Assembly: GCA_017438635.1 (NCBI GenBank)
Contig: JAFRUZ010000017.1
Span: 1-33,117, forward strand
Source of the DNA: Bacilli bacterium
GTDB lineage: Bacteria; Bacillota_I; Bacilli_A; RF39; UBA660
DNA: 33,117 nt
Reading direction: 5' to 3'
The notes under the pieces were generated by a model. The model was given only the letters and a program-made list of their open reading frames with translations, did no database searches and was not told the DNA's origin. The translations under genes were made by a program, and so were the position numbers. Numbering within the stretch: position 1 is the first letter of the stretch; the number at the start of each line of letters is the position of its first letter. Positions 3,304-25,703 of this stretch are shown one piece after another.

Positions 3304-4005
3304 ATGGAAAAGGATAGAAGAGCTAGAGTAATAGCAATTGCAGCACTTCTAGTAGGAGTAGTAGGTCTTTCATTAGGTTTCGCTGCATTTACTAACACAT
3401 TAACAATTAAATCATCTGCAGAAGTTGTAGTAGATAGTTCAGTATTCAATGTTGTTTTCTCTAAACAATCTGGATCTGTAGTTGATGGAAGTGTAACTCC
3501 AACACTTAGTCCTGCAAACGGACCTGCAAGTTTCACTGGAGCTAACGCTACTATCACTAACAGTGGTACTGGAGCACCAAAAATTGAAGGTTTAAAAGCT
3601 ACATTTACTGCACCAGGACAAAGCGTTACTTATTCATTCTATACTAAGAATGCTGGAGCACTTAAAGCATATCTAACAAGCGTTAATTTTGCAGAAGTTA
3701 CAACCGGTGCAACTAAAACATGTACTGCTAAATCAGTACAATCACCAGCAACACCTGCAACAGCTAGTTTAGTTGCTGCTGCTTGTAATGGTATTAGCTT
3801 AACAGTAACTCTAGGAAGTGAAAGTTTCACTCAAACAACTGCAAGAAATGCGTTTACAACAGCAACAGCACATGACTTAGAAGCTGATGGTTATGAAACA
3901 GTTACAGTTGTAATAGCTTATGCAGCTGGTTCAGCTCAAGCCGATGGTGACTTTGATGTTGCATTTGGTGATGTTACTTTAAATTATAGTTCAGTAGCAA
4001 GTTAA
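3304..4005 (+). CDS. TasA/camelysin-like secreted matrix protein
   Basis: A 233-aa exported protein with an N-terminal signal of the SipW-dependent type: charged MEKDRRAR, a hydrophobic stretch to about residue 28, then GFAAFTNT at the likely cleavage region. The rest is a Thr/Ser/Ala-rich beta-sandwich-like sequence without further membrane segments, as in TasA and camelysin biofilm-fibre proteins. The G/C content and codon use (many GCT, GCA, ACT, GGT) differ visibly from the very AT-rich neighbours, typical of an abundant protein. RBS AAAGGAGGTG at 3290-3299. A SipW-type peptidase follows about 110 bp downstream. Fibre formation is inferred from the family and context. Confidence 0.75.
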   Translation: MEKDRRARVIAIAALLVGVVGLSLGFAAFTNTLTIKSSAEVVVDSSVFNVVFSKQSGSVVDGSVTPTLSPANGPASFTGANATITNSGTGAPKIEGLKATFTAPGQSVTYSFYTKNAGALKAYLTSVNFAEVTTGATKTCTAKSVQSPATPATASLVAAACNGISLTVTLGSESFTQTTARNAFTTATAHDLEADGYETVTVVIAYAAGSAQADGDFDVAFGDVTLNYSSVAS

Positions 4006-4042
4006 TAGATTATAAAAAAATTCATTAAATTTATATATATAC

Positions 4043-4078
4043 TTATAGGCACAGGCTGCTTATAACTTGTGCCTATAA
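4043..4078 (+). promoter_or_regulatory. Hairpin between TasA-like gene and sipW
   Basis: Perfect 11-bp stem TTATAGGCACA (4043-4053) / TGTGCCTATAA (4068-4078) with a 14-nt loop. No clean T tract follows, so it is more likely an attenuator or 3'-end stabiliser that lets the abundant first gene be expressed above the peptidase than a full terminator. Confidence 0.55.
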
Positions 4079-4112
4079 TATATTTTAACAAGATTATTTG
4101 GGAGGTAACAAA

Positions 4113-5240
4113 GTGAAAAGGGGATATAAAAAGTTACTAATTTTCGAACTATTTATTTTCATTATTTTGTTCCTAAATAGTTTTGTATGGAATATATTAT
4201 CCGGTTACAAAATAAGTATATTTTTACTCGTAGTTTTATTCATTTTTCGGGGCGTTTTTGGATTTGAAAAAGACAAACATAGACATACAAAAGATTTTCT
4301 TATGGAAGTAATAATCTTCTTGATATCATTCTTCATTTTGTATTATTTGTTTGGAATTATAATAACTTTTTACGCAAATAACAGTTATTACACATTACTA
4401 GGTATAGTAGATTTCATTATACCTGCACTTATGTATGCAGTATTGAAAGAATACTTTAGATACATGATAATGTGTAAGTCAGAAGGTAGTAAATTGTTGT
4501 TTATTACAACAGTTGTTATGTTTGTGCTATTAGATACAACAACAGCTCTTTATTACAGAAACTTTGGTACAAACTATAACGTATTCTTATTCATAGCATT
4601 AACGCTATTACCTGCTATAAGTAGTAACTTAATTTTATGTTACTATACTACTAGAATTGGATATAAACCATTAATTTTATATTCATCAGTAATGGCAGTA
4701 TACAAATACCTACTACCAATTCTTCCTAATCCAAACGAATACATTTCATCAATTATAACTTTTATAGTACCGTTAGCCTTAGGTTATAGGTTCTATAAAA
4801 TTTCTAACATAGAACATGAGAGAGAGATTACTACAGAATACAGAGATAAGAAAATTAGACCATTAATTCTTTCAACTATTATAGTAATAATACTAGTATA
4901 CTTTACTTCAGGTTATTTCCATTACTGGGCAATAGCTGTAGGAAGTGGAAGTATGGAACCTGAAATATATAAAGGTGATGTAGCAATAATAGAAAAGATT
5001 GATGGACAATATCAAAAATTAAAAAAAGGGCAAGTAATAGCCTTTAAGTATGACGGTATAATTATTGTTCATAGATTAATAAACATAATTGAAGATCAAG
5101 GACAGTACTACTTTTATACAAAAGGTGATGCAAACCCTAAACCAGATAATTATATGGTAAAAGAAGAAATGATTGTTGGAGTAGTAAATCACAAAATACC
5201 ATACATCGGAATACCAACAGTTTGGTTAAATGAATTGTAG
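4113..5240 (+). CDS. sipW: Signal peptidase I, SipW/archaeal-ER type, with extra membrane domain
   Basis: Membrane signal peptidase of 375 aa. The C-terminal ~120 residues hold the catalytic part: GSGSMEPEIYKGDVAII with the catalytic Ser, and IIVHRLINI where a His replaces the Lys of ordinary bacterial type I peptidases, the hallmark of SipW/ER-type enzymes; KGDANPKPD follows. The first ~240 residues add several hydrophobic segments not found in Bacillus SipW, which is about 190 aa. The start is the GTG at 4113 with GGGAGGT at 4100-4106; an upstream TTG at 4098 lies before that RBS. It probably matures the TasA-like protein and the two modular proteins downstream. Confidence 0.85.
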   Translation: MKRGYKKLLIFELFIFIILFLNSFVWNILSGYKISIFLLVVLFIFRGVFGFEKDKHRHTKDFLMEVIIFLISFFILYYLFGIIITFYANNSYYTLLGIVDFIIPALMYAVLKEYFRYMIMCKSEGSKLLFITTVVMFVLLDTTTALYYRNFGTNYNVFLFIALTLLPAISSNLILCYYTTRIGYKPLILYSSVMAVYKYLLPILPNPNEYISSIITFIVPLALGYRFYKISNIEHEREITTEYRDKKIRPLILSTIIVIILVYFTSGYFHYWAIAVGSGSMEPEIYKGDVAIIEKIDGQYQKLKKGQVIAFKYDGIIIVHRLINIIEDQGQYYFYTKGDANPKPDNYMVKEEMIVGVVNHKIPYIGIPTVWLNEL

Positions 5241-5254
5241 TAGGAGGTGAGAAA

Positions 5255-6577
5255 ATGAAGAAAAAAGCAAAAAGAAAAGCAGAAGAAGACAAATTTGAAG
5301 ATATAGAAGACGAAATAGAAAACGCAATGAACGATGTAGAAGAACAAGATGAAGAAGTAGATCTTGAAGCAGAAAAAGAAGTCGAAGAACCTGAAGAATC
5401 TGCTGTAGTTGAAGAAACTAAAGAAGACGTTGAAGATACTCCTGCAGAAAACAATGAAGAAGCAGAATTAGTTGAAGTTGTTGAAGAAGGAAAGAAAAAA
5501 GTACCGTTCTTCAAATTTGATAACAATGCTTACATGAGTTATGAACGAAAAGTATTAATCTATCTTATCCTAGTTCTAGGATGTGCAATTCTATCTACTA
5601 TTTTTCTAACAAGATCATTTTCCACTGGAAAACAAGAACATATATCTTATAGAGAACAAAGTAGTCTAGATTATAAAGTATATTTAAAGAAAAACGACTT
5701 CTATGAAACAAAATATCTAGATAAAGATATGGTTTATGTAGCAAGTTTGATCAAAAGAATAGATGTAAATATTAAGTATTTATTCGATATAGATGAAAAG
5801 AGTAATATAAATTTTGATTATGATATCATTGGTAAATTAGCAATTACAGATAATGATGAAAAAGATGTATTCTTTGAAAAAGAGTACACATTATTAGAAA
5901 ACAAAAAAGATGGCATGAAAGATTCAAAGAATTATGGTATCAATGAAAATGTAAGTATCAATTATGACTACTACAATAATTTAACCAATAAATTTAGATC
6001 AGATTATGGGATAGAAACAAAGAGTAATTTAATAATTTATTTCAAAGTAAATCAAAAGAGTGCTGAAGATAATAAGTATAAATTAGATACTAATAGTACT
6101 ATGTCTTTAACAATACCATTATCAGAAAAAGCTATTAATATAAAAATGGATACTAAAGAAATAAATAAAGAAAGTCAATTATATAGAGATACAGCAGTAG
6201 TTGTAAGTAATTATATATATGCAATAGTAAGCGTTATACTTATCATAGTTTTAGCAATATTTATTGGACCACTTATTAAACTATTATTAAATATGAGAAC
6301 TAAGAAATCTACTTATGATAAGTATGTAGAAAGAGTATTAAATGAATATGATAGACTTATCGTAGAAACTACAACACCTCCAAATATGAATGTTAATAAC
6401 ATAGTAAGAGTTCATTCATTTACTGAATTACTTGATGTAAGAGATAATTTAAGTCTACCAATCAAATATTATGTAATAAATAATCATCAAAAATGTAACT
6501 TCTATATTAATCACGGTGATGAACTATATTTATTAGTATTAAAAGCAGTAGATATAGAGGAAAAAAATAAAAAATAA
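5255..6577 (+). CDS. DUF5305-like membrane protein of SipW cluster
   Basis: A 440-aa protein with a very acidic N-terminal cytoplasmic region (to ~residue 80), a membrane segment at ~99-118 (VLIYLILVLGCAILSTIFL), a ~210-residue outer domain with DYKVYLKKNDFYETKYL, and a second membrane segment at ~325-345. A cytoplasmic C-terminal tail of ~90 residues with VRVHSFTELLDVRDNLSLPI follows. This layout matches my recollection of the DUF5305 family, which occurs beside signal peptidases and TasA/camelysin-like genes; its biochemical role is unknown. It starts 14 bp after sipW with RBS AGGAGGTG, so it is in the same operon. It may be an accessory or anchoring factor for fibre assembly. Confidence 0.6.
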   Translation: MKKKAKRKAEEDKFEDIEDEIENAMNDVEEQDEEVDLEAEKEVEEPEESAVVEETKEDVEDTPAENNEEAELVEVVEEGKKKVPFFKFDNNAYMSYERKVLIYLILVLGCAILSTIFLTRSFSTGKQEHISYREQSSLDYKVYLKKNDFYETKYLDKDMVYVASLIKRIDVNIKYLFDIDEKSNINFDYDIIGKLAITDNDEKDVFFEKEYTLLENKKDGMKDSKNYGINENVSINYDYYNNLTNKFRSDYGIETKSNLIIYFKVNQKSAEDNKYKLDTNSTMSLTIPLSEKAINIKMDTKEINKESQLYRDTAVVVSNYIYAIVSVILIIVLAIFIGPLIKLLLNMRTKKSTYDKYVERVLNEYDRLIVETTTPPNMNVNNIVRVHSFTELLDVRDNLSLPIKYYVINNHQKCNFYINHGDELYLLVLKAVDIEEKNKK

Positions 6578-6603
6578 AAGGTTTTCAAATGAAAGCCTTT
6601 TTT
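6577..6603 (+). terminator. Terminator after the DUF5305-like gene
   Basis: Stem AAAGGTTTTC (6577-6586) / GAAAGCCTTT (6591-6600), one G-U pair, loop AAAT, followed by T residues. Ends the TasA-like/sipW transcript. Confidence 0.8.
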
Positions 6604-6688
6604 ATTAAAATAAAACTTAAATAGATGATTATAGATTAAAAATATGTTATAATAATATAATAGGAATACTATAAAAGGAGGTGCAAAT

Positions 6689-7630
6689 ATGAAACAAAAA
6701 AATAAACTTAATAAAACAAATAAAAATTATCTTGTTATAACTCTTTTTGCGCCTCTAACAGCCTTAATAGTCTTATTAATAACCTTAGGATATTCAGCAT
6801 TCCAAAGTACAGGAATGGTAAAGGATGCAGCAGCAACAGTAAGGCCAGAAACATTTGTAAGAGTAACAAATTTGGAAGTAGATACAACATCTAATGCAAC
6901 AGTGATAAGTAAAGACTATAGCAGTGTAGGACATACTAACGGATATATTACTTCAATTTATAGCCAAGTAACATTTACAAGAACAACATCATCAGTAAAG
7001 TATGCAATAGATGTAACAAATTTTGGTAATGTAGAAATGGGTCTTGCCAGTATAACAGGACTTCCTAATAATTTAGATTATGAACTTGATACAAATGTAT
7101 ATGATATAGGTGAAAAGATATGTAATAGTAATAATCAATGTACTCTTGGAGCAAAGAAAACAATATATGTAACAATAAAATATAAAAGTGGAAGTGGAAC
7201 AAATACAAGTACAACCCTAAATGCTAATTTTAATTTAAACTTTAAAGAATTACATAATATCTATTACAATAATACAGCAATAGATTATGTAATAGATGGC
7301 GGAAACAAAACAGTATCTTTAGGAAACAACCCTCCAACATATATAAGAGTAACAGGAACTCTTACAAATAGTAGTTATACATCACCAAATGTAACCTTAA
7401 CAGCAGTAACAAGTGATATATACATAATAGAAGTTCATAAAGTATATGTAGATAACATAGCACAACAAGATACAGTAGATGATGGGGGAAATATAACAGT
7501 TAATTTAGGAAATAATGCTCCTGCAAATGCTTCAGATATAACAATAACAGGAACTTATAATACTAGTTCATATTCTAATCCTAACTTAACCTTAAACAAT
7601 GTAACAACGGATATTTATATAACTATCTCA
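6689..7630 (+). repeat. Duplicated module, copy 1
   Basis: Colinear with 8457-9398 at a constant offset of 1768 bp, measured at both the start codon and the end of the module, so there is no net insertion or deletion. The RBS context (AAAGGAGGTGCAAA) is duplicated too. After residue 17 the proteins differ at only about 20 positions in ~300. Similarity stops abruptly after the sequence encoding TDIYITI. Confidence 0.9.
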
Positions 7631-8416
7631 AGTGGTGGCGGTGGCAATGGTACTTGGACAGAACCCGTTGAAGATCATACTGTAACAGTATATGATCCTG
7701 ACAATATGACTATTCCACCAAGCAGTACCATTAAATATGAAGAAGTAGCTGGACAACCTCAAATTTCAACAGATTCAAGTGGTAATATAACTCGCTTTGA
7801 ATATACAAATATTGATACAACTAATGGAATGAGTTTACCTTCTGGGGGAGTTGATACTGGAGTATTAGCATTCGATGGTCGTGACTTTACTGCAACACTA
7901 ACTGCAACCTTATCATTTTCAAGTTGTACCAAAAGTATTTGCCCTATACTAGGAGCCGCTACTAAAACAACTTCAGTAAATGGAACATTAATATATGAAA
8001 TGAGAGTAGCTTCTTCTGGATATGGTCACAATGCTTCAGGTACTAATCAAAGTCCGCCATATAACAAATTTAGATTTGGACGTTATGAAAATAGTAACGC
8101 TACTGGTAGTGATGATTTTAATATCAATAGTAGAGTTACATCATCTACATCAAGCGGTAGATATGGTTACAATTCAAGTACCGGTACAGTTAAACTTACA
8201 TTTAAACTATATTATACAAATGGTGTCTTCTCATCAGAAATATATGATGCTTCAGGTAATATACTAGCTAAACCTCACAATAATATGACAATTACATTTA
8301 GCGATACAAGTGGATCCACTTTTAATGACATAACTGTAGAAGTAGGACATTTCCAACATAACACAGAATATACTCACACATTCGCAATTCATGAGTTCCA
8401 AGTAGTGAAATCCTAG
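6689..8416 (+). CDS. Exported modular surface protein A (TasA-like N-module)
   Basis: A 575-aa exported protein. N-terminal: basic Lys/Asn stretch, hydrophobic segment at ~17-36, then GYSAFQSTG, the same pattern as the SipW-type signal of the upstream matrix protein. Residues ~45-190 resemble a TasA-like beta-sandwich (KYAIDVTNFGNVEMGL). Residues ~190-313 contain two ~60-residue repeats, each with a GG(N)xTVxLGNN motif and ending SDIYII / TDIYIT. After a GGGG linker (~316) comes a unique ~255-residue C-terminal domain, Thr/Ser-rich with a Cys pair (SSCTKSICP), function unknown. RBS AAAGGAGGTG. No LPXTG anchor is seen. The N-terminal 313 residues recur in the next gene. Confidence 0.7.
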   Translation: MKQKNKLNKTNKNYLVITLFAPLTALIVLLITLGYSAFQSTGMVKDAAATVRPETFVRVTNLEVDTTSNATVISKDYSSVGHTNGYITSIYSQVTFTRTTSSVKYAIDVTNFGNVEMGLASITGLPNNLDYELDTNVYDIGEKICNSNNQCTLGAKKTIYVTIKYKSGSGTNTSTTLNANFNLNFKELHNIYYNNTAIDYVIDGGNKTVSLGNNPPTYIRVTGTLTNSSYTSPNVTLTAVTSDIYIIEVHKVYVDNIAQQDTVDDGGNITVNLGNNAPANASDITITGTYNTSSYSNPNLTLNNVTTDIYITISSGGGGNGTWTEPVEDHTVTVYDPDNMTIPPSSTIKYEEVAGQPQISTDSSGNITRFEYTNIDTTNGMSLPSGGVDTGVLAFDGRDFTATLTATLSFSSCTKSICPILGAATKTTSVNGTLIYEMRVASSGYGHNASGTNQSPPYNKFRFGRYENSNATGSDDFNINSRVTSSTSSGRYGYNSSTGTVKLTFKLYYTNGVFSSEIYDASGNILAKPHNNMTITFSDTSGSTFNDITVEVGHFQHNTEYTHTFAIHEFQVVKS

Positions 8417-8456
8417 AACAAATAATATAGCAAAGTAAAATAAAGGAGGTGCAAAA

Positions 8457-9398
8457 ATGATAAACAAAAATAAACATAATAAAACAAAAAATAAGTATTT
8501 TAATATTACTCTTTTTGCGCCTCTTATTGCTTTAATAGTATTATTTATAACCTTAGGATATTCAGCATTCCAAAGTACAGGAATGGTAAAGGATGCAGCA
8601 GCAACAGTAAGACCAGAAACATTTGTAAGAGTAACAAATTTGGAAGTAGATACAACATCTAATGCAACAGTAATAAGTAAAGACTATACTAGTGTAGGAC
8701 ATACTAATGGATATATAACTTCAATTTATAGCCAAGTAACATTTACAAGATCAACATCCTCAGTAAAGTATGCAATAGATGTAACAAATTTTGGTAACGT
8801 AGAAATGGGTCTTGCCAGTATCACAGGACTTCCTAATAATTTAGATTATGAACTTGATACCAATGTATACGATATAGGAGAAAAGATATGTAATAGTAAT
8901 AATGAATGTACTCTTGGAGCAAAGAAAACAATATATGTAACAATAAAATATAAAAGTGGAAGTGGAACAAATACAAGTACAACTCTAAATGCTAACTTTA
9001 ATCTAACTTTTAAAGAATTACATAATATTTATTACAACAGTACAGCAATAGATTATGTAATAGATGGAGGGAACAAAACAGTATCGTTAGGAAACAATCC
9101 ACCAACATATATAAGAGTAACAGGGACATTAACAAATAGTAGTTATACATCACCAAATGTAACATTAACAGCAGTAACAAGTGATATTTATATAATAGAA
9201 GTTCACAAAGTATATGTAGATAACGTAGTACAACAAAATACCGTAGATAATGGTGGAAATATAACAGTAAACCTAGGAAACAATGCTCCTACAAACTCTT
9301 CAGATATAACAATAACAGGATCTTATGGTAGTTCCTCTTATAATAATCCTAATCTTATATTAAACAACGTAACGACAGATATTTATATTACAATAGGT
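8457..9398 (+). repeat. Duplicated module, copy 2
   Basis: Second copy of the module at 6689-7630. Nearly all substitutions are silent or conservative, consistent with recent duplication or ongoing gene conversion. Confidence 0.9.
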
Positions 9399-10202
9399 TC
9401 AGCACCTGTTCCAATAACTATAAGTGAAAAGATAGAAAGTGTAATTGAAGGAATAACACCTGATAGTAATGGCATGTATACTGGAGCCGCAGGATCTGGT
9501 TGTACTAATAAAATAATAGATGATGGCACATCAGATCATAATCTTAGATATGTTGGATCAGATCCATGTAACTATGTAACATTTAATGGTGAAACATGGA
9601 GAATAATTGGAGTATTCTACAACATGGGTTCAGATCCTTTGGTAAAATTAGTTAATGGAACAGCACCATATAGCACTTCAGTCAAGTTTAATAATAATAA
9701 CAAGAATGGTGGTAACGTATGGGGATCAAATAGCTTGTCCAGTTCAATGCAAAGCATTTCTGCAGCTTCTAACAGCATGGTTCAAAGTGTACAGTGGAGA
9801 ATTGGAGGACCTCAATACAACTCAAATACCGCGGCATCCTTCTATTCTAGTGAAACGAGTAAAACAAGTTCAAGCGTTTCTATTGGATTAATAAATGCTG
9901 CAGACTTTGGATATGCTACAGACAATATAAGTTCATGTAGAAGTTCAAACTTAGGTAGCTGGACTGTTGCAAACTGTGTAACAGATCATAACTGGTTATA
10001 TTTAGATAATTATAATAGTTTTACAGTAACAACTGTAGGTACTGGTAACTCAATCTACAGAGTAACAACAGGTAAAGTTATTGTTTCTACAACGATTAAT
10101 ACTAATTCGGCAGCAAGAGCAGCACTATACTTAAAAGCAGATATTCTATATGATTCAGGTGATGGATCAAGTGGAACCCCATATACATTGAAAACAAGTT
10201 AA
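8457..10202 (+). CDS. Exported modular surface protein B (same N-module, different C-domain)
   Basis: A 581-aa paralogue of the preceding gene. Residues 1-313 repeat the SipW-type signal, TasA-like sandwich and two ~60-residue repeats nearly unchanged. The C-terminal ~265 residues are unrelated to those of protein A. They contain SGCTNKIIDDG, then LRYVGSDPCNYVTFNGETWRIIGVF, a motif common in large surface proteins of gut Firmicutes, and then a Ser/Asn-rich region with several Cys (SSCRSSN, ANCVTDHNW). It is probably a ligand-binding or fibre-associated domain. RBS AAAGGAGGTG. A terminator follows. The pair suggests one export/assembly module carrying exchangeable tips. Confidence 0.7.
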   Translation: MINKNKHNKTKNKYFNITLFAPLIALIVLFITLGYSAFQSTGMVKDAAATVRPETFVRVTNLEVDTTSNATVISKDYTSVGHTNGYITSIYSQVTFTRSTSSVKYAIDVTNFGNVEMGLASITGLPNNLDYELDTNVYDIGEKICNSNNECTLGAKKTIYVTIKYKSGSGTNTSTTLNANFNLTFKELHNIYYNSTAIDYVIDGGNKTVSLGNNPPTYIRVTGTLTNSSYTSPNVTLTAVTSDIYIIEVHKVYVDNVVQQNTVDNGGNITVNLGNNAPTNSSDITITGSYGSSSYNNPNLILNNVTTDIYITIGSAPVPITISEKIESVIEGITPDSNGMYTGAAGSGCTNKIIDDGTSDHNLRYVGSDPCNYVTFNGETWRIIGVFYNMGSDPLVKLVNGTAPYSTSVKFNNNNKNGGNVWGSNSLSSSMQSISAASNSMVQSVQWRIGGPQYNSNTAASFYSSETSKTSSSVSIGLINAADFGYATDNISSCRSSNLGSWTVANCVTDHNWLYLDNYNSFTVTTVGTGNSIYRVTTGKVIVSTTINTNSAARAALYLKADILYDSGDGSSGTPYTLKTS

Positions 10203-22192: not shown

Positions 22193-22269
22193 GGGGAATT
22201 AGCTCAGCTGGCTAGAGCACCTGCCTTGCACGCAGGGGGTCGCGGGTTCGAATCCCTTATTCTCCACCA
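22193..22269 (+). tRNA. tRNA-Ala (anticodon UGC)
   Basis: Complete cloverleaf with encoded CCA (22267-22269). Acceptor GGGGAAT / ATTCTCC contains the G3-U70 pair (22195/22263) that identifies alanine tRNAs. Anticodon TGC at 22227-22229 in loop CTTGCAC. T loop TTCGAAT. The T stem GCGGG / CCCTT has a C-T mismatch (22243/22257) plus a G-T pair at its base, which is unusual and falls in the 3' half likely replaced by phage DNA on integration. The only tRNA in the window. Confidence 0.95.
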
Positions 22270-22281
22270 ATATGTATTTTT

Positions 22282-22311
22282 CCCTTATTTTATAAGGGTT
22301 TTTATTTTTTT
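22282..22311 (+). terminator. Terminator downstream of tRNA-Ala
   Basis: CCCTTAT (22282-22288), loop TTT, ATAAGGG (22292-22298), long T tract. Confidence 0.85.
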
Positions 22312-22331
22312 AGGTACTATTTAGGTACTAT
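22310..22331 (+). repeat. 11-bp tandem repeat near the prophage end
   Basis: TTAGGTACTAT occurs twice in direct tandem (22310-22320, 22321-22331). Short direct repeats beside an attachment core are typical arm-type binding sites for tyrosine integrases with an N-terminal arm-binding domain; that role is inferred. Confidence 0.5.
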
Positions 22332-22345
22332 TTTTTTTATATTTT

Positions 22346-23449
22346 TTATAAATTATCTAGTAAATTAACTATTTCATCTTGTATATTTGGGAATAAATGC
22401 ATATAAGTTTTTTGCATCACATCTATAGTGTGTCCCATGCGTTCTGACATCATTATAAAAAACCTTGTAGCATCTGTTTGCCCTGACTTAAGATACTCAT
22501 TTATTAACAATGATACATGACTATGTCTGAATTCATGCATTGTTATCTCATTTATTCCACTTAAATTAAAATACTGTCTCTTATGCCTGTCTATAGTTGT
22601 CTGTGGTAAAAATCTACTACCACCAAAAACAAACCATTGATTTGAAAAATCTTTATATTTAGTCATGCTTTGCTTATATAACAATAATTGTCTTTTTAAA
22701 GTAGAGCTCATGCTTATTGTTCTTGGTTTGTTAGTTTTAGGAGATGTTATCTTATAAACGCTTGCAGTTTTCACAGATAGAGTTTTATTTATAAGTATAG
22801 TTGATTTATTAAAATCTATATCTTTCCAGGTCAATGCTTGCATTTCTCCTTTTCTACAACCAGTATAATATGCAAATATAAAAAATGTTTTCCACAATTC
22901 GTCATCTATGACAGAAATAAACTTATTAAATTCATTATAAGTTATATAACGTATTTTTTCTATAGATGCAACTTCTTCTTTTTTTACTTTAAAACGTCCA
23001 TACATGCTAACGGGGTTATAAGCTAGGCCATAGTTTTTTACAGCAAAATCCATAATGTTTTTCAAAACAGAATATATTTTGTTTAAATATGAGGCCGTAG
23101 AAACGCTTTTTTTTAGGATTTCAGCCCATTTCCTGATAACTGAGGTATTTATATCAGAAATATAATAATCGACAAAAAATGGGCGAATATGGGCGTTATA
23201 TGCATTTATATAAGTAGTATAAGTCGACTCTTTCCTAACCTCATATAAACTATTAAAATAATCTTTGGCAACTAATACAAAAGGTTTTCTTATTGGATTA
23301 TCTCTTTTTAAAAGAAATAATGCCTCTTCTTCTTGGGCTTCTTTTTTGGTAGCATACCTTTTAGATTTATATGGTTTTCTATCTTTGTATACTTTAAAGT
23401 ACCACGATCTACCGTCTTTTGTTTTATTTTTATCTTTATAAACTGCCAT
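22346..23449 (-). CDS. int: Phage integrase (tyrosine recombinase)
   Basis: Site-specific recombinase of 367 aa. The N-terminal ~55 residues (GRSWYFKVYKDRKPYKSKRYATKKEAQEEEA) are an AP2-like arm-binding domain; ~60-160 form the SAM-like core-binding domain; the catalytic domain follows with R in TGCRKGEM, HEFRHSH (H-x-x-R), MGH and the nucleophile Tyr in KTYMHLF. All catalytic residues are present. RBS GGAG (minus strand) before the ATG at 23449. It points toward tRNA-Ala, whose 3' end it most likely uses as attB. No convincing promoter of its own is seen; transcription may come from the immR operon. Confidence 0.95.
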   Translation of the reverse strand: MAVYKDKNKTKDGRSWYFKVYKDRKPYKSKRYATKKEAQEEEALFLLKRDNPIRKPFVLVAKDYFNSLYEVRKESTYTTYINAYNAHIRPFFVDYYISDINTSVIRKWAEILKKSVSTASYLNKIYSVLKNIMDFAVKNYGLAYNPVSMYGRFKVKKEEVASIEKIRYITYNEFNKFISVIDDELWKTFFIFAYYTGCRKGEMQALTWKDIDFNKSTILINKTLSVKTASVYKITSPKTNKPRTISMSSTLKRQLLLYKQSMTKYKDFSNQWFVFGGSRFLPQTTIDRHKRQYFNLSGINEITMHEFRHSHVSLLINEYLKSGQTDATRFFIMMSERMGHTIDVMQKTYMHLFPNIQDEIVNLLDNL

Positions 23450-23466
23450 TTTTTATCAACTCCAAT

Positions 23467-23482
23467 CTTTACAAATGTAAAG
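23467..23482 (+). promoter_or_regulatory. Palindrome over the small-RNA -35
   Basis: CTTTACA-AA-TGTAAAG (23467-23482), a perfect 7-bp-arm palindrome containing the -35 TTTACA and lying in the leader of int. Candidate operator controlling the small RNA, or both divergent units. Confidence 0.45.
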
Positions 23483-23496
23483 TTTTTTTATATAAT
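23468..23496 (+). promoter_or_regulatory. Rightward promoter of the predicted small RNA
   Basis: TTTACA (23468-23473), 17-bp spacer, TATAAT (23491-23496); predicted start near 23502. Transcription runs away from int. Confidence 0.7.
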
Positions 23497-23501
23497 AGAG
23501 T

Positions 23502-23587
23502 ATGTAAAAGGAGAATGTCTTCCTTGGTCGGTTGATATAATCTTTTTACATATATTTGGCTCTGCATTGCCGTGCAGGGCTTTTTTT
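23502..23587 (+). ncRNA. Predicted antisense-type small RNA of the prophage
   Basis: About 86 nt between a good promoter and a GC-rich terminator, with no usable ORF. The 5' end (TATGTAAAAGGA, 23501-23512) pairs with TCTTTTTACATA (23541-23552; 12 bp, one G-U), closing a 28-nt mostly unpaired loop. The loop holds GTCTTCCTTGGTCG (23517-23530). This is complementary, with one G-U pair, to CGACCAAGGAGGAC at 25249-25262, which covers the RBS of the excisionase-like gene starting at 25266. It would therefore block that gene's translation. It is also antisense to any leftward read-through transcript entering int. Function is inferred from base pairing only. Confidence 0.65.
23559..23587 (+). terminator. 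Terminator of the small RNA
   Basis: GCTCTGCA (23559-23566), loop TTGCCG, TGCAGGGC (23573-23580; one T-G pair), then seven T. Read on the other strand there is no T tract, so it serves the rightward transcript. Confidence 0.85.
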
Positions 23588-23588
23588 A

Positions 23589-24023
23589 TTAACTTAATTG
23601 ATTTAATAATGATACTATTGCATCATATTGTGGGAAACCACTTTCGATTGTGTATGCATATCCATTTTTTACAACTGCATCAAAATCATAATCCATAGCA
23701 CTAACTTCAAGTTTTTGATTTTTTTCTGCTTTTTTGTATGCATCGCTATTTTTATCAAATTGATATATTTCTATTGCTTTTTCATTTGAAAGCAATTTGA
23801 AACCATCTTTTGCTCCAACTAATTCGTAAGAAGCTTCTGTTTTCTCTACAGTAATATTTAATGCTTCTATTTTAGATTGGATATTAGATAAATTGATGTT
23901 TTCTTTTGTTTGTGTAGGCACTGTGTTTGAACTATCAGATACTTCTGAAGTTTTCTCTTTTCCACAACCTGTTAATAACAAGCATACAACTAATGCAATA
24001 ACAATTAATCCTTTCTTTTTCAT
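23589..24023 (-). CDS. Prophage lipoprotein (lysogenic conversion or exclusion candidate)
   Basis: A 144-aa predicted lipoprotein: signal MKKKGLIVIALVVCLLLTGC with lipobox LLTGC (Cys at residue 20), then an acidic/Thr-rich linker and a globular domain with AIEIYQFDKNSDAYKKAEKNQKLE and YAYTIESGFPQYDAIVSLLNQL. It would be anchored outside the cell membrane. It sits between int and the ImmA/ImmR genes, a position where phage TP-J34 of Streptococcus carries the superinfection-exclusion lipoprotein Ltp; no sequence relation to Ltp is claimed. RBS AAAGGAG. Expected to be expressed in the lysogen. Confidence 0.65.
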   Translation of the reverse strand: MKKKGLIVIALVVCLLLTGCGKEKTSEVSDSSNTVPTQTKENINLSNIQSKIEALNITVEKTEASYELVGAKDGFKLLSNEKAIEIYQFDKNSDAYKKAEKNQKLEVSAMDYDFDAVVKNGYAYTIESGFPQYDAIVSLLNQLS

Positions 24024-24066
24024 TTTTTTACTCCTTTCCTAATACATATTTATAAAAACTCCTGTA

Positions 24067-24378
24067 CTAGCAAGTTTCTATCAGATATTTAATATATTTG
24101 TCTGCCTCATCTTCATATTTATCGATTTTTAAAGCAAACAGATCGTTATCATATTGCTCTAACTGATTAAGTTCTATATGTGCTAATTCATGCAATATAG
24201 TCTTTTTTCTTTTGTAATATGATAAGCACTCATTAACTATAATTACAAATATACCTTTATGTTGAAACACAAAGCCGTTAATTCCTTTTGGTAGTTCTTT
24301 ATACCTTATAGTTGCATTTATATAATCTAATAATTCTTTTTGTGTAATATTTCCTTTTAATAAATTATATATATTCAT
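24067..24378 (-). CDS. ImmA/IrrE-type metallopeptidase
   Basis: A 103-aa zinc peptidase of the ImmA/IrrE (DUF955, now Peptidase_M78) family. The zinc motif HExxH is seen in ILHELAHIELNQ (~residues 62-73), and the third-ligand region in YEDEADKYIKYL. In ICEBs1 and related elements ImmA cleaves the partner repressor ImmR to start induction. The same pairing is present here: the repressor gene is immediately upstream on the same strand with a 42-bp gap. RBS GGAG 8 nt before the start. Confidence 0.85.
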   Translation of the reverse strand: MNIYNLLKGNITQKELLDYINATIRYKELPKGINGFVFQHKGIFVIIVNECLSYYKRKKTILHELAHIELNQLEQYDNDLFALKIDKYEDEADKYIKYLIETC

Positions 24379-24420
24379 AATACTTACTCCTTTCGAGAAT
24401 AAGCACCTATACTAGCATAC

Positions 24421-24786
24421 TTAATCTTCCCCTAACTCCTCATCTATTTCTTTCTTTGTTTCTTCTAATATGGTTTTTATAATCATTTTGTCTTTATCCG
24501 ATAAATGATCTTTATATTTGCTAAATAATATTTCGGTCTCGTCTATAGTTTTAGATTGATCGAAATCTTCAATTAAATTAGATTTTTTGATACCAAAATA
24601 ATTTGCAAGCATTTCTATATTATCAATTCTTGGATATTTTTTTGCGTTCATCCAGTCACTAAATGTAGAAGGAGTTATTTCCAAATCACTACATACGTCT
24701 GAAGCAGTCTTGCCAGAAACTTTTAAATAATATCTTAAATTATGAGCCAAAACTTCCTTGTTGCCTAAATTGGATATATCCGACAT
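24421..24786 (-). CDS. ImmR-like phage repressor (XRE helix-turn-helix)
   Basis: A 121-aa repressor: N-terminal HTH (SGKTASDVCSDLEITPSTFSDWMNAKKYPRIDNIEMLANYFGI, ~residues 24-66) and a charged helical C-terminus (~75-121) without a self-cleavage domain, as in ImmR proteins that depend on an external ImmA peptidase. It likely represses the divergent early promoter and itself through the ACGCTAAAAG sites; one such site lies on its own -10 region. RBS GAGGAG on the minus strand. Confidence 0.85.
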   Translation of the reverse strand: MSDISNLGNKEVLAHNLRYYLKVSGKTASDVCSDLEITPSTFSDWMNAKKYPRIDNIEMLANYFGIKKSNLIEDFDQSKTIDETEILFSKYKDHLSDKDKMIIKTILEETKKEIDEELGED

Positions 24787-24809
24787 ATTATCATCTCCTC
24801 TCTGTATAT

Positions 24810-24838
24810 ATTATACGCTAAAAGAGTACAAAAATCAA
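24810..24838 (-). promoter_or_regulatory. Repressor promoter (leftward)
   Basis: On the minus strand: -35 TTGATT (24838-24833), 17-bp spacer, -10 TATAAT (24815-24810). Operator site 1 overlaps the -10 and spacer. Confidence 0.65.
24813..24829 (+). promoter_or_regulatory. Operator-like site 1
   Basis: ATACGCTAAAAGAGTAC, matching site 3 at 15 of 17 positions. On the repressor promoter, suggesting autoregulation. Confidence 0.55.
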
Positions 24839-24854
24839 TAAGATATGTAAAATT

Positions 24855-24871
24855 TTACGCAAAAAGTGAAA
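24855..24871 (+). promoter_or_regulatory. Operator-like site 2
   Basis: TTACGCAAAAAGTGAAA, a weaker match, midway between the two divergent promoters. Confidence 0.4.
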
Positions 24872-24878
24872 AAAAGTA

Positions 24879-24908
24879 TTGACATACGCTAAAAGCGTAT
24901 TATATAAT
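24879..24908 (+). promoter_or_regulatory. Early rightward promoter with operator site 3
   Basis: TTGACA (24879-24884), 18-bp spacer, TATAAT (24903-24908). The spacer is almost entirely the palindrome ATACGC-TAAAA-GCGTAT (24884-24900), so a bound repressor would exclude RNA polymerase. Drives the Cro-like gene and the early operon. Confidence 0.8.
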
Positions 24909-24931
24909 GAAACTGTAAGGAGGAGATAATT

Positions 24932-25156
24932 TTGAAGTGGACGCTAAAAGCCATAAGAACAAATCTAAATTTAACTCAATCAGAAATGGCCGAAAAACTT
25001 GGAGTATCAAAGGAAACATACCAAAATTACGAAAATTATAAGACATATCCTGATGTTCCTGTAATAAAAAAAATAATAGAATTATCAAATATTGATTTTG
25101 ACGACATTATTTTTTTGCCAAATCAATACGCTAAAAGCGAAGACAAGGAGGTGTAA
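24932..25156 (+). CDS. Cro-like XRE regulator
   Basis: A 74-aa HTH protein divergent from the repressor: TLKAIRTNLNLTQSEMAEKLGVSKETYQNYENYKTYPD (~residues 4-41) is a clear XRE HTH. Probably represses the lysogeny promoter to favour lytic growth. The start is a TTG at 24932 behind AAGGAGGAG (24917-24925); no ATG is available in frame before the HTH. Its codons 3-8 overlap operator-like site 4, and its end overlaps site 5. Confidence 0.8.
   Translation: MKWTLKAIRTNLNLTQSEMAEKLGVSKETYQNYENYKTYPDVPVIKKIIELSNIDFDDIIFLPNQYAKSEDKEV
24939..24955 (+). promoter_or_regulatory. Operator-like site 4 (inside cro start)
   Basis: GGACGCTAAAAGCCATA: keeps the core ACGCTAAAAGC. Lies 55 bp after site 3, in the first codons of the Cro-like gene. 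Confidence 0.4.
25126..25142 (+). promoter_or_regulatory. Operator-like site 5
   Basis: ATACGCTAAAAGCGAAG: identical to site 3 in the first 14 positions. Lies at the end of the Cro-like gene, just before the RBS of the next ORF, where a bound repressor could act as a roadblock. Confidence 0.5.
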
Positions 25157-25158
25157 AT

Positions 25159-25245
25159 ATGCCAGTGTGGTTGCAAACAATAACAGTACTATTAACTTTT
25201 ATAGTTGCAATTACCTATATAGGTAATAAATACCATAAAAAATAA
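25159..25245 (+). CDS. 28-residue single-span membrane peptide
   Basis: MPVWLQTITVLLTFIVAITYIGNKYHKK: one hydrophobic span (~5-21) and a basic tail. RBS AAGGAGGTG (25145-25153), 5 nt before the ATG, 2 bp after the Cro-like stop. The strong RBS and operon position support real translation. The role is unknown; a small-membrane regulator of a partner protein is possible. Confidence 0.55.
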   Translation: MPVWLQTITVLLTFIVAITYIGNKYHKK

Positions 25246-25248
25246 GAT

Positions 25249-25262
25249 CGACCAAGGAGGAC
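25249..25262 (+). promoter_or_regulatory. Predicted small-RNA target over an RBS
   Basis: CGACCAAGGAGGAC includes the SD AAGGAGG (25254-25260) of the gene at 25266. It pairs along its full length with loop 23517-23530 of the predicted small RNA (13 Watson-Crick pairs and one G-U). Confidence 0.6.
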
Positions 25263-25265
25263 TAT

Positions 25266-25469
25266 ATGAAATCAAAAGAAGATATATTAAACCAATTATA
25301 TCTTACAGCAGAGGATTTATTAATCTTAATACCTGAAATGAAATATCATAGAGCACTTGATGTTATTAATGAGGTGCGAAAAGAAATGGAAGAAAAAAAA
25401 TACTTTCTTCCAATATCAAGAAAAAAACTAGCATTAACAAAGCTAGTTAAAAAGAAAATGGGAATATAG
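25266..25469 (+). CDS. Excisionase-like small DNA-binding protein
   Basis: A 67-aa basic protein: YLTAEDLLILIPEMKYHRALDVINEVRKEMEEKKYFLPISRKKLALTKLVKKKMG. The helix-turn-helix-like layout followed by a conserved Pro/Arg wing and a basic C-terminal helix resembles DUF3173/excisionase-like proteins of phages and Tn916-type elements. It probably helps the integrase in excision or activates early functions. RBS AAGGAGG at 25254-25260, which is the predicted target of the small RNA. Second-tier early gene of the rightward operon. Confidence 0.55.
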   Translation: MKSKEDILNQLYLTAEDLLILIPEMKYHRALDVINEVRKEMEEKKYFLPISRKKLALTKLVKKKMGI

Positions 25470-25484
25470 AAGGGAGCCAAAAAT

Positions 25485-25595
25485 ATGTTAAAAAGATTAG
25501 CAATTGATTTAGGAATAGTATTAGGAGTTTTAGCATTTTTCCTAGGAGTGCAATTACTAAGTAATTACGTACACTATGGAACATTCTTATTTTAA
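25485..25595 (+). CDS. 36-residue membrane peptide
   Basis: MLKRLAIDLGIVLGVLAFFL followed by GVQLLSNYVHYGTFLF: one long hydrophobic span. RBS AAGGGAG at 25470-25476. Follows the excisionase-like gene by 15 bp. Function unknown. Confidence 0.5.
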   Translation: MLKRLAIDLGIVLGVLAFFLGVQLLSNYVHYGTFLF

Positions 25596-25606
25596 AGCAC
25601 AAAAAA

Positions 25607-25642
25607 AGTTGATTAAGGTAGTTATTCGAAATCAACTCTTTG
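25607..25642 (+). terminator. Weak hairpin after the first early genes
   Basis: AGTTGATT (25607-25614) / AATCAACT (25630-25637) with a 15-nt loop, followed by CTTTG only. Perhaps a partial terminator dividing immediate-early genes from the replication block; the rest of the 108-bp gap holds only AT-rich sequence and the next RBS. Confidence 0.35.
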
Positions 25643-25703
25643 TAATAAAAATTACGTGTAAATTATAACACAAATTTATAAAAAAATCAAATATGGAGGT
25701 AAC

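Follow-up and report, generated by a model that had tools for sequence, protein, structure and literature searches.

Results

Organization of the prophage locus

The DNA analyzed in this study (the window) is a stretch of 33,117 nucleotides from a Bacilli bacterium. It holds the left part of a prophage, which is inserted beside a tRNA gene (22193-22266). The lysogeny module runs in order through an integrase (-), a lipoprotein-like ORF (-), an ImmA-like protease and an ImmR-like repressor. The rightward early operon runs through a Cro-like gene, a 28-aa ORF and a 67-aa gene at 25266. The features considered here are as follows.

22346..23449 (-): tyrosine integrase, transcribed away from the small RNA (PF00589, 1.8e-15; phrog_1, 1.3e-58)
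23468..23496 (+): predicted small-RNA promoter TTTACA-17-TATAAT, 11/12 consensus; relatives have -10 and -35 boxes at the same place
23502..23513 (+): 5' arm of a 12-bp stem, from folding; the outer stem covaries among relatives
23503..23588 (+): predicted small antisense RNA gene, ~85-86 nt, with hairpin and terminator; 5' end placed from the promoter
23517..23533 (+): predicted target-pairing segment of the loop (17 bp, -30 kcal/mol; top non-self site of the window)
23542..23553 (+): 3' arm of the 12-bp stem, from folding; the outer stem covaries among relatives
23558..23588 (+): predicted intrinsic terminator, a 10-bp stem (23558-23581) and then a run of seven T
24067..24378 (-): ImmA-like metalloprotease (Peptidase_M78, 1.5e-7; phrog_87)
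24421..24786 (-): ImmR-like repressor (HTH_26; phrog_2967, 4e-16)
24932..25156 (+): Cro-like gene, heading the early operon to which the target belongs (HTH_3, 2.6e-14)
25246..25262 (+): predicted target site in the mRNA, including the Shine-Dalgarno sequence AAGGAGG and beginning just past the stop codon that ends the small upstream ORF
25266..25469 (+): target gene for a 67-aa small DNA-binding-type early protein, with homologues in all matched relatives

The lipoprotein-like ORF (23589-24023, -), which lies between the small RNA and the ImmA-like gene, is a candidate exclusion or host-benefit gene. On the host side of the window (3304-10202), genes for secreted-repeat proteins adjoin a signal peptidase gene, and two of these proteins (6689 and 8457) are near-identical across their first 300 residues.

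A predicted small RNA gene divergent from the integrase gene

An earlier note on this DNA, made from the sequence alone, had proposed a small RNA with a rightward promoter, a 12-bp stem carrying a 28-nt loop, and a terminator ending in seven T. All three elements were borne out at the coordinates given above. Folding of 88 nt returned the 12-bp stem and the 28-nt loop at -36.4 kcal/mol, and the terminator was the sole + strand terminator in 22300-25700, where shuffled sequence gave 0.8. Around the small RNA, 20 promoter-like matches were seen against 23 expected in this A+T-rich stretch. Because such matches alone are not above chance, the promoter call rests on its near-consensus quality and on its conservation in relatives; the -10 boxes of the window and of one relative (locus L048) were assigned by eye. 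The predicted unit thus has its own promoter and its own terminator, as is characteristic of a trans-acting antisense RNA that blocks a ribosome-binding site.

We also considered how the small RNA may be controlled. Repressor-type operator palindromes TACGCTAAAAGCGTA are present at 24814, 24885 and 25127, around the promoters of the switch, and an operator search of the region found none near the small-RNA promoter. Since the operators flank the switch promoters only, the small RNA is probably not under the control of the ImmR-like repressor. An operator-free promoter is compatible with constitutive expression, without showing such expression. Another palindrome, CTTTACA-AA-TGTAAAG (23467-23482), overlaps the -35 box of the small-RNA promoter, and therefore a regulator other than ImmR may bind there.

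Pairing of the loop with the leader of the 67-aa gene

The earlier note had described a 14-nt pairing between 23517-23530 in the loop and 25249-25262, with one G-U. This pairing was confirmed, and the full duplex is longer, with 17 bp between 23517-23533 and 25246-25262 (three G-U; -30 kcal/mol), spanning the entire Shine-Dalgarno sequence of the 25266 gene. When the loop was matched against both strands of the window, the 25266 leader was its best non-self site, and the next-best site reached -20.5 kcal/mol compared with -30 kcal/mol. A pattern search of the whole 0.9-Mb genome found the 14-nt site without mismatch at two places, the loop and the target leader.

The target gene lies near the front of the lytic operon in a phage that has an integrase, and its product is small, as would be expected of a directionality factor. 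Its AlphaFold model had a pLDDT of 93. Profile searches assigned the 67-aa protein to no Pfam family and no named PHROG family, and so the label "excisionase-like", which it had been given before, was not confirmed as fact. Its homologues match phrog_989, a family of unknown function. A fold search against viral structures returned HTH-type matches and one protein named as an excisionase, all with E above 1e-3, and no usable match was obtained in the PDB. Fold matches to calmodulin-like, pentatricopeptide-repeat and centrin proteins were judged to be chance helix matches and were rejected. Since this is a small early-operon protein of an integrase-bearing prophage, and the RNA that would control it travels beside the integrase gene, it may be a recombination directionality factor, to which we give a little under an even chance. 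A perfect 18-bp palindrome, ATTACCTATATAGGTAAT, lies just 5' of the target gene (25210-25227) and could serve as an operator or fold into an RNA hairpin.

Related phages carry the same RNA design with different loops

A search with the single 67-aa sequence gave no protein match in viral or genome contigs, whereas an alignment query succeeded and found homologues both in viral contigs and in further genomes belonging to the same family. Named phages gave no match to a homologue of the target protein. In the relatives, an RNA built on the same plan occupies the equivalent position, reading away from the integrase gene, and its loop is almost wholly different in each phage. At least 37 different loop/target pairs were found among them, and each loop pairs with the early gene of its own phage at the translation start. 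In G011 (locus L006), for example, a hairpin-terminator unit between the integrase and the next gene has the loop TTTAGTCGTGTGGTTTT, and the L006 target leader AAAACCACACGACTAGA is its complement with one G-U.

In each first-examined relative having both genes, the region upstream of the integrase gene was complementary to the phage's own target leader. We then scanned each target leader without bias against both strands of the surrounding 14 kb. The complementary stretch was on the + strand, 55-84 nt 5' of the integrase start at most loci and at 119 and 131 nt at two. At several loci, a stronger match elsewhere was an inverted repeat beside the target itself. Weak sites of 10-12 nt at L049/L056 and L054 were visible only when the loop was used as the query. 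As a separate observation, the L088 locus contains a 26-bp perfect long inverted repeat 5' of the target gene (TTCCAGTCCTCATTAAGTGCCTGAAA and its complement, ~3556-3868 on the target strand), and long inverted repeats occupy the same position at L007, L035 and L087.

Some loci departed from this pattern. The target gene was present at L034, L040 and L041, but neither a small RNA nor a site was found there. L037 has a small RNA with the loop of its relatives and a target leader without a site; this locus may be a mosaic or recombinant, since its target protein resembles that of L040. At L039 there was no site at the usual target, and the small RNA pairs at 3866 with the next gene of the operon (a 39-aa membrane-type ORF), possibly a target switch. 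No target site was obtained for L113, L114 and L147. At L117, one small RNA has two candidate targets, with sites at int+1270 and int+3158: the small gene of HTH type and an early gene of greater length, whose 228-aa product resembles a recombination protein.

Distant integrases (33-46% identity) were accompanied by an equivalent promoter-hairpin-terminator RNA in which the loops differ again; the majority of these loops pair at the start of a different small gene. The target families of these distant relatives are homologous to that of the window (hhalign probabilities of 97.2, 93.7 and 96.5%). Viral contigs with integrases only ~33% identical (L145, L130, L140 and L147) also have a promoter-hairpin-terminator unit, and the L145 RNA pairs over 14 nt with a site located 40 nt 5' of a small gene; from this group, the RNA family may reach further hosts. 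The hairpin-terminator RNA was not found 5' of int in SpaA1, Wrath, SpsX-DS3, SE-1 or three fecal phage records with distant integrases.

Loops and targets diversify together

Co-diversification was analyzed with three sets of loci. A swap matrix was built from 18 loop types, one locus each, with L039 included though it has no match at its own site. The own pair was the best in 16/18 rows and 16/18 columns. The summed own score was 636.5, the best permutation reached 514, and none of 200,000 permutations attained the own score; in reverse orientation the matrix gave no signal.

For the second set, loci gathered by integrase alone were pooled with the earlier loci, and 54 of them had a terminator-bearing unit and were not chosen for pairing (the terminators of the window, L110/L048, L114 and L118 were added by hand). 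The best complement of the RNA across the entire locus fell within a translation start in 40/54, compared with 122/648 (19%) when RNAs were swapped (Fisher p ~1e-16). Translation-initiation regions make up 12.6% of the sequence of these loci. The best-scoring site was outside a translation start in 14/54, and at some of these (e.g., L117 and L118) the right site was second-best or short.

The third set consisted of 37 curated pairs. The own duplex had a mean of -26.2 kcal/mol compared with -12.0 kcal/mol for swapped duplexes, and the own target was preferred by 37/37 RNAs, in a test that is partly circular as these pairs were picked because they pair; the swap matrix and the 54-locus test are less selected. 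In the curated pairs, the median distance from the end of the site to the start codon downstream of it was 12 nt.

We next examined single bases. Loops and targets of five closely related phages with one target family were aligned in register. Among the 14 base pairs, 8 had changed on both sides and 5 were without a paired change; 97% of cells were paired, and sliding the partner lowered pairing to at most 42%. In a comparison of L096 with L030, paired positions of the loop differ; two of them are matched by changes in the target and the third becomes a G-U, and the target change is achieved partly by a synonymous change within the coding sequence. The outer stem, whose arms were extracted and laid out by hand since MAFFT of the full RNAs did not align the stems, showed compensatory changes in 8/9 pairs, with 88% of cells paired compared with at most 54% when slid. 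This covariation suggests that the stem is kept as a structure and that the loop is free to change with the target. In related prophages, loop and leader therefore change together and not independently, as the proposal from the first sequence had called for. Compensatory change that preserves pairing at a translation start is a property of trans-acting antisense RNAs that block ribosome-binding sites. These results provide comparative sequence support for the RNA unit, its pairing and its co-evolution with the target.

Discussion

Proposed mechanism and alternative explanations

We propose that the small RNA would be transcribed away from the integrase gene under a promoter of its own, and that the conserved stem would present a lineage-specific loop to the early-operon mRNA. 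The loop would pair at the translation-initiation region of a target 1.0-4.5 kb away, either 5' of or over the Shine-Dalgarno sequence or in the first codons. This pairing would hide the ribosome-binding region and repress translation of the small DNA-binding-type protein, which may serve excision as a directionality factor or early regulation. The overall outcome would be a silent prophage and perhaps also repression of the corresponding gene in any incoming phage that shares its loop/target type. We put the probability at about 0.88 that this trans-acting antisense RNA family is real and blocks translation of a small DNA-binding-type early gene. The central proposal of the earlier note, a trans-acting prophage RNA whose loop masks an early-gene ribosome-binding region, is thus supported by the covariation of loops and leaders in relatives.

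The position of the target sites bears on the outcome of pairing. The sites lie over the Shine-Dalgarno sequence itself in the window and at L153, and over the first codons at L026, L030, L096, L097 and L090. Premature termination, RNase cleavage and titration are known mechanisms of phage and plasmid antisense RNAs. The pair described here might likewise act by premature termination, as with the P4 CI RNA, or by RNase cleavage, or the early mRNA might titrate the RNA, and some sites do lie 5' of the Shine-Dalgarno sequence, e.g., at -46 to -30. However, no + strand terminator was found near the target leader, and the sites cluster at ribosome-binding regions and first codons, some of them within the coding sequence. 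We consider such other outcomes unlikely. Translational repression would be the most economical step, since all but a few far-upstream sites lie where a duplex would hinder 30S binding.

The two matching sequences might instead be DNA sites at which a phage-specific protein binds, such as operators or arm sites, or they might be one leader that has been duplicated. A protein with phage-specific sites could also yield co-diversifying matched sequences, and the - strand at 23530-23517 resembles the target leader, which had been the reason for suggesting a duplication. However, the match occurs in antisense orientation only, as the reverse-orientation control indicates, and it sits in the loop of a covarying hairpin within a promoter-terminator unit. 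On the target side, it ends at the above median distance from the start codon and sometimes within the first codons, and all differences in the window duplex are G-U. The duplication also fails on the relatives, in which loop and target are unrelated from one phage to another, always antisense and always inside the promoter-hairpin-terminator unit. DNA sites or a duplicated leader are therefore very improbable. A mainly cis-acting RNA, antisense to a long leftward integrase leader and with a secondary early-gene match, is the least credible explanation: the RNA is divergent from int, 53 nt upstream, and fully complementary to a leftward transcript from the lipoprotein/immunity genes, but it (start 23503) falls short of the integrase start (23449) and its Shine-Dalgarno sequence, and cis complementarity, being automatic, cannot account for co-diversification with a gene 1-4.5 kb away.

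Implications of the loop/target pairs

Usually a single sequence is the only basis for arguing that a phage RNA pairs with its target; in this case, dozens of naturally occurring pairs give direct evolutionary support, and they are a ready orthogonal set for testing. The small RNA would add a layer to the ImmR/ImmA-type switch, and the link between RNA and target suggests that a protein family without a name has a key early role in these gut phages.

These observations raise the question of whether RNA encodes part of the immunity of prophages. We tentatively suggest that the RNAs may constitute an incompatibility system, an RNA-coded form of immunity among temperate phages of uncultured Bacilli, in which the private loop/target pair of each lineage would have diversified under selection to escape the RNAs of resident prophages; this idea is possible, though we would not wager on it. 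It is raised by the near absence of cross-pairing, which resembles the specificity groups of the P1/P7 c4 RNAs and of plasmid antisense RNAs. If it were true, phages of one repressor type would still be distinguishable by their antisense code.

Comparison with known systems

An antisense RNA at a ribosome-binding site is of a known kind; the family adjacent to int has no Rfam entry. An Rfam search at the gathering score returned tRNA only, with no C4 match, and a permissive Rfam search of the region gave sub-threshold chance matches only, none of them to C4. No description of an RNA of this kind next to int was found in a literature search covering mainly open-access papers.

The c4 small RNA of P1 and P7 is reported to use complementary loop sequences to block the ribosome-binding site of an early gene, with a specificity that differs between the two phages (PMC12197685). 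As in c4, the loop of the RNA described here is complementary to the ribosome-binding site of an early gene and varies between related phages. Unlike c4 and the P4 CI RNA, however, it has its own predicted promoter and terminator next to int, lies 1.7 kb from its target and would act in trans. It also differs from c4 in having one long variable loop and in its target, a small HTH-type protein rather than ant/icd. The c4 RNA is processed from the leader of the operon that it controls. Membership of the C4/CI family was rejected, as the Rfam C4 covariance model was unmatched and the cis leader arrangement is not seen here.

Prophage-encoded antisense control of phage genes is also known from P22 sas, BTP1 STnc6030 and lambda OOP, and in some cases of this group superinfection exclusion results. 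Those RNAs are encoded on the strand opposite their targets, which makes the complementarity complete, whereas the complementarity here is 10-20 nt, at a distance, and maintained by co-evolution. ColE1 RNAI and R1 CopA are stem-loop RNAs in which the loop sets specificity and diversifies together with the target. Specificity would likewise be set by the loop in the present RNAs; RNAI and CopA are cis-encoded and control replication, whereas the RNAs here are trans-encoded and directed at an early prophage gene. Trans-acting small RNAs that block ribosome-binding sites, including the prophage-encoded DicF, pair imperfectly at the start of a distant mRNA. Small RNAs of the DicF type regulate mostly host genes, whereas the predicted partner here is the phage's own gene, with a private sequence in each phage.
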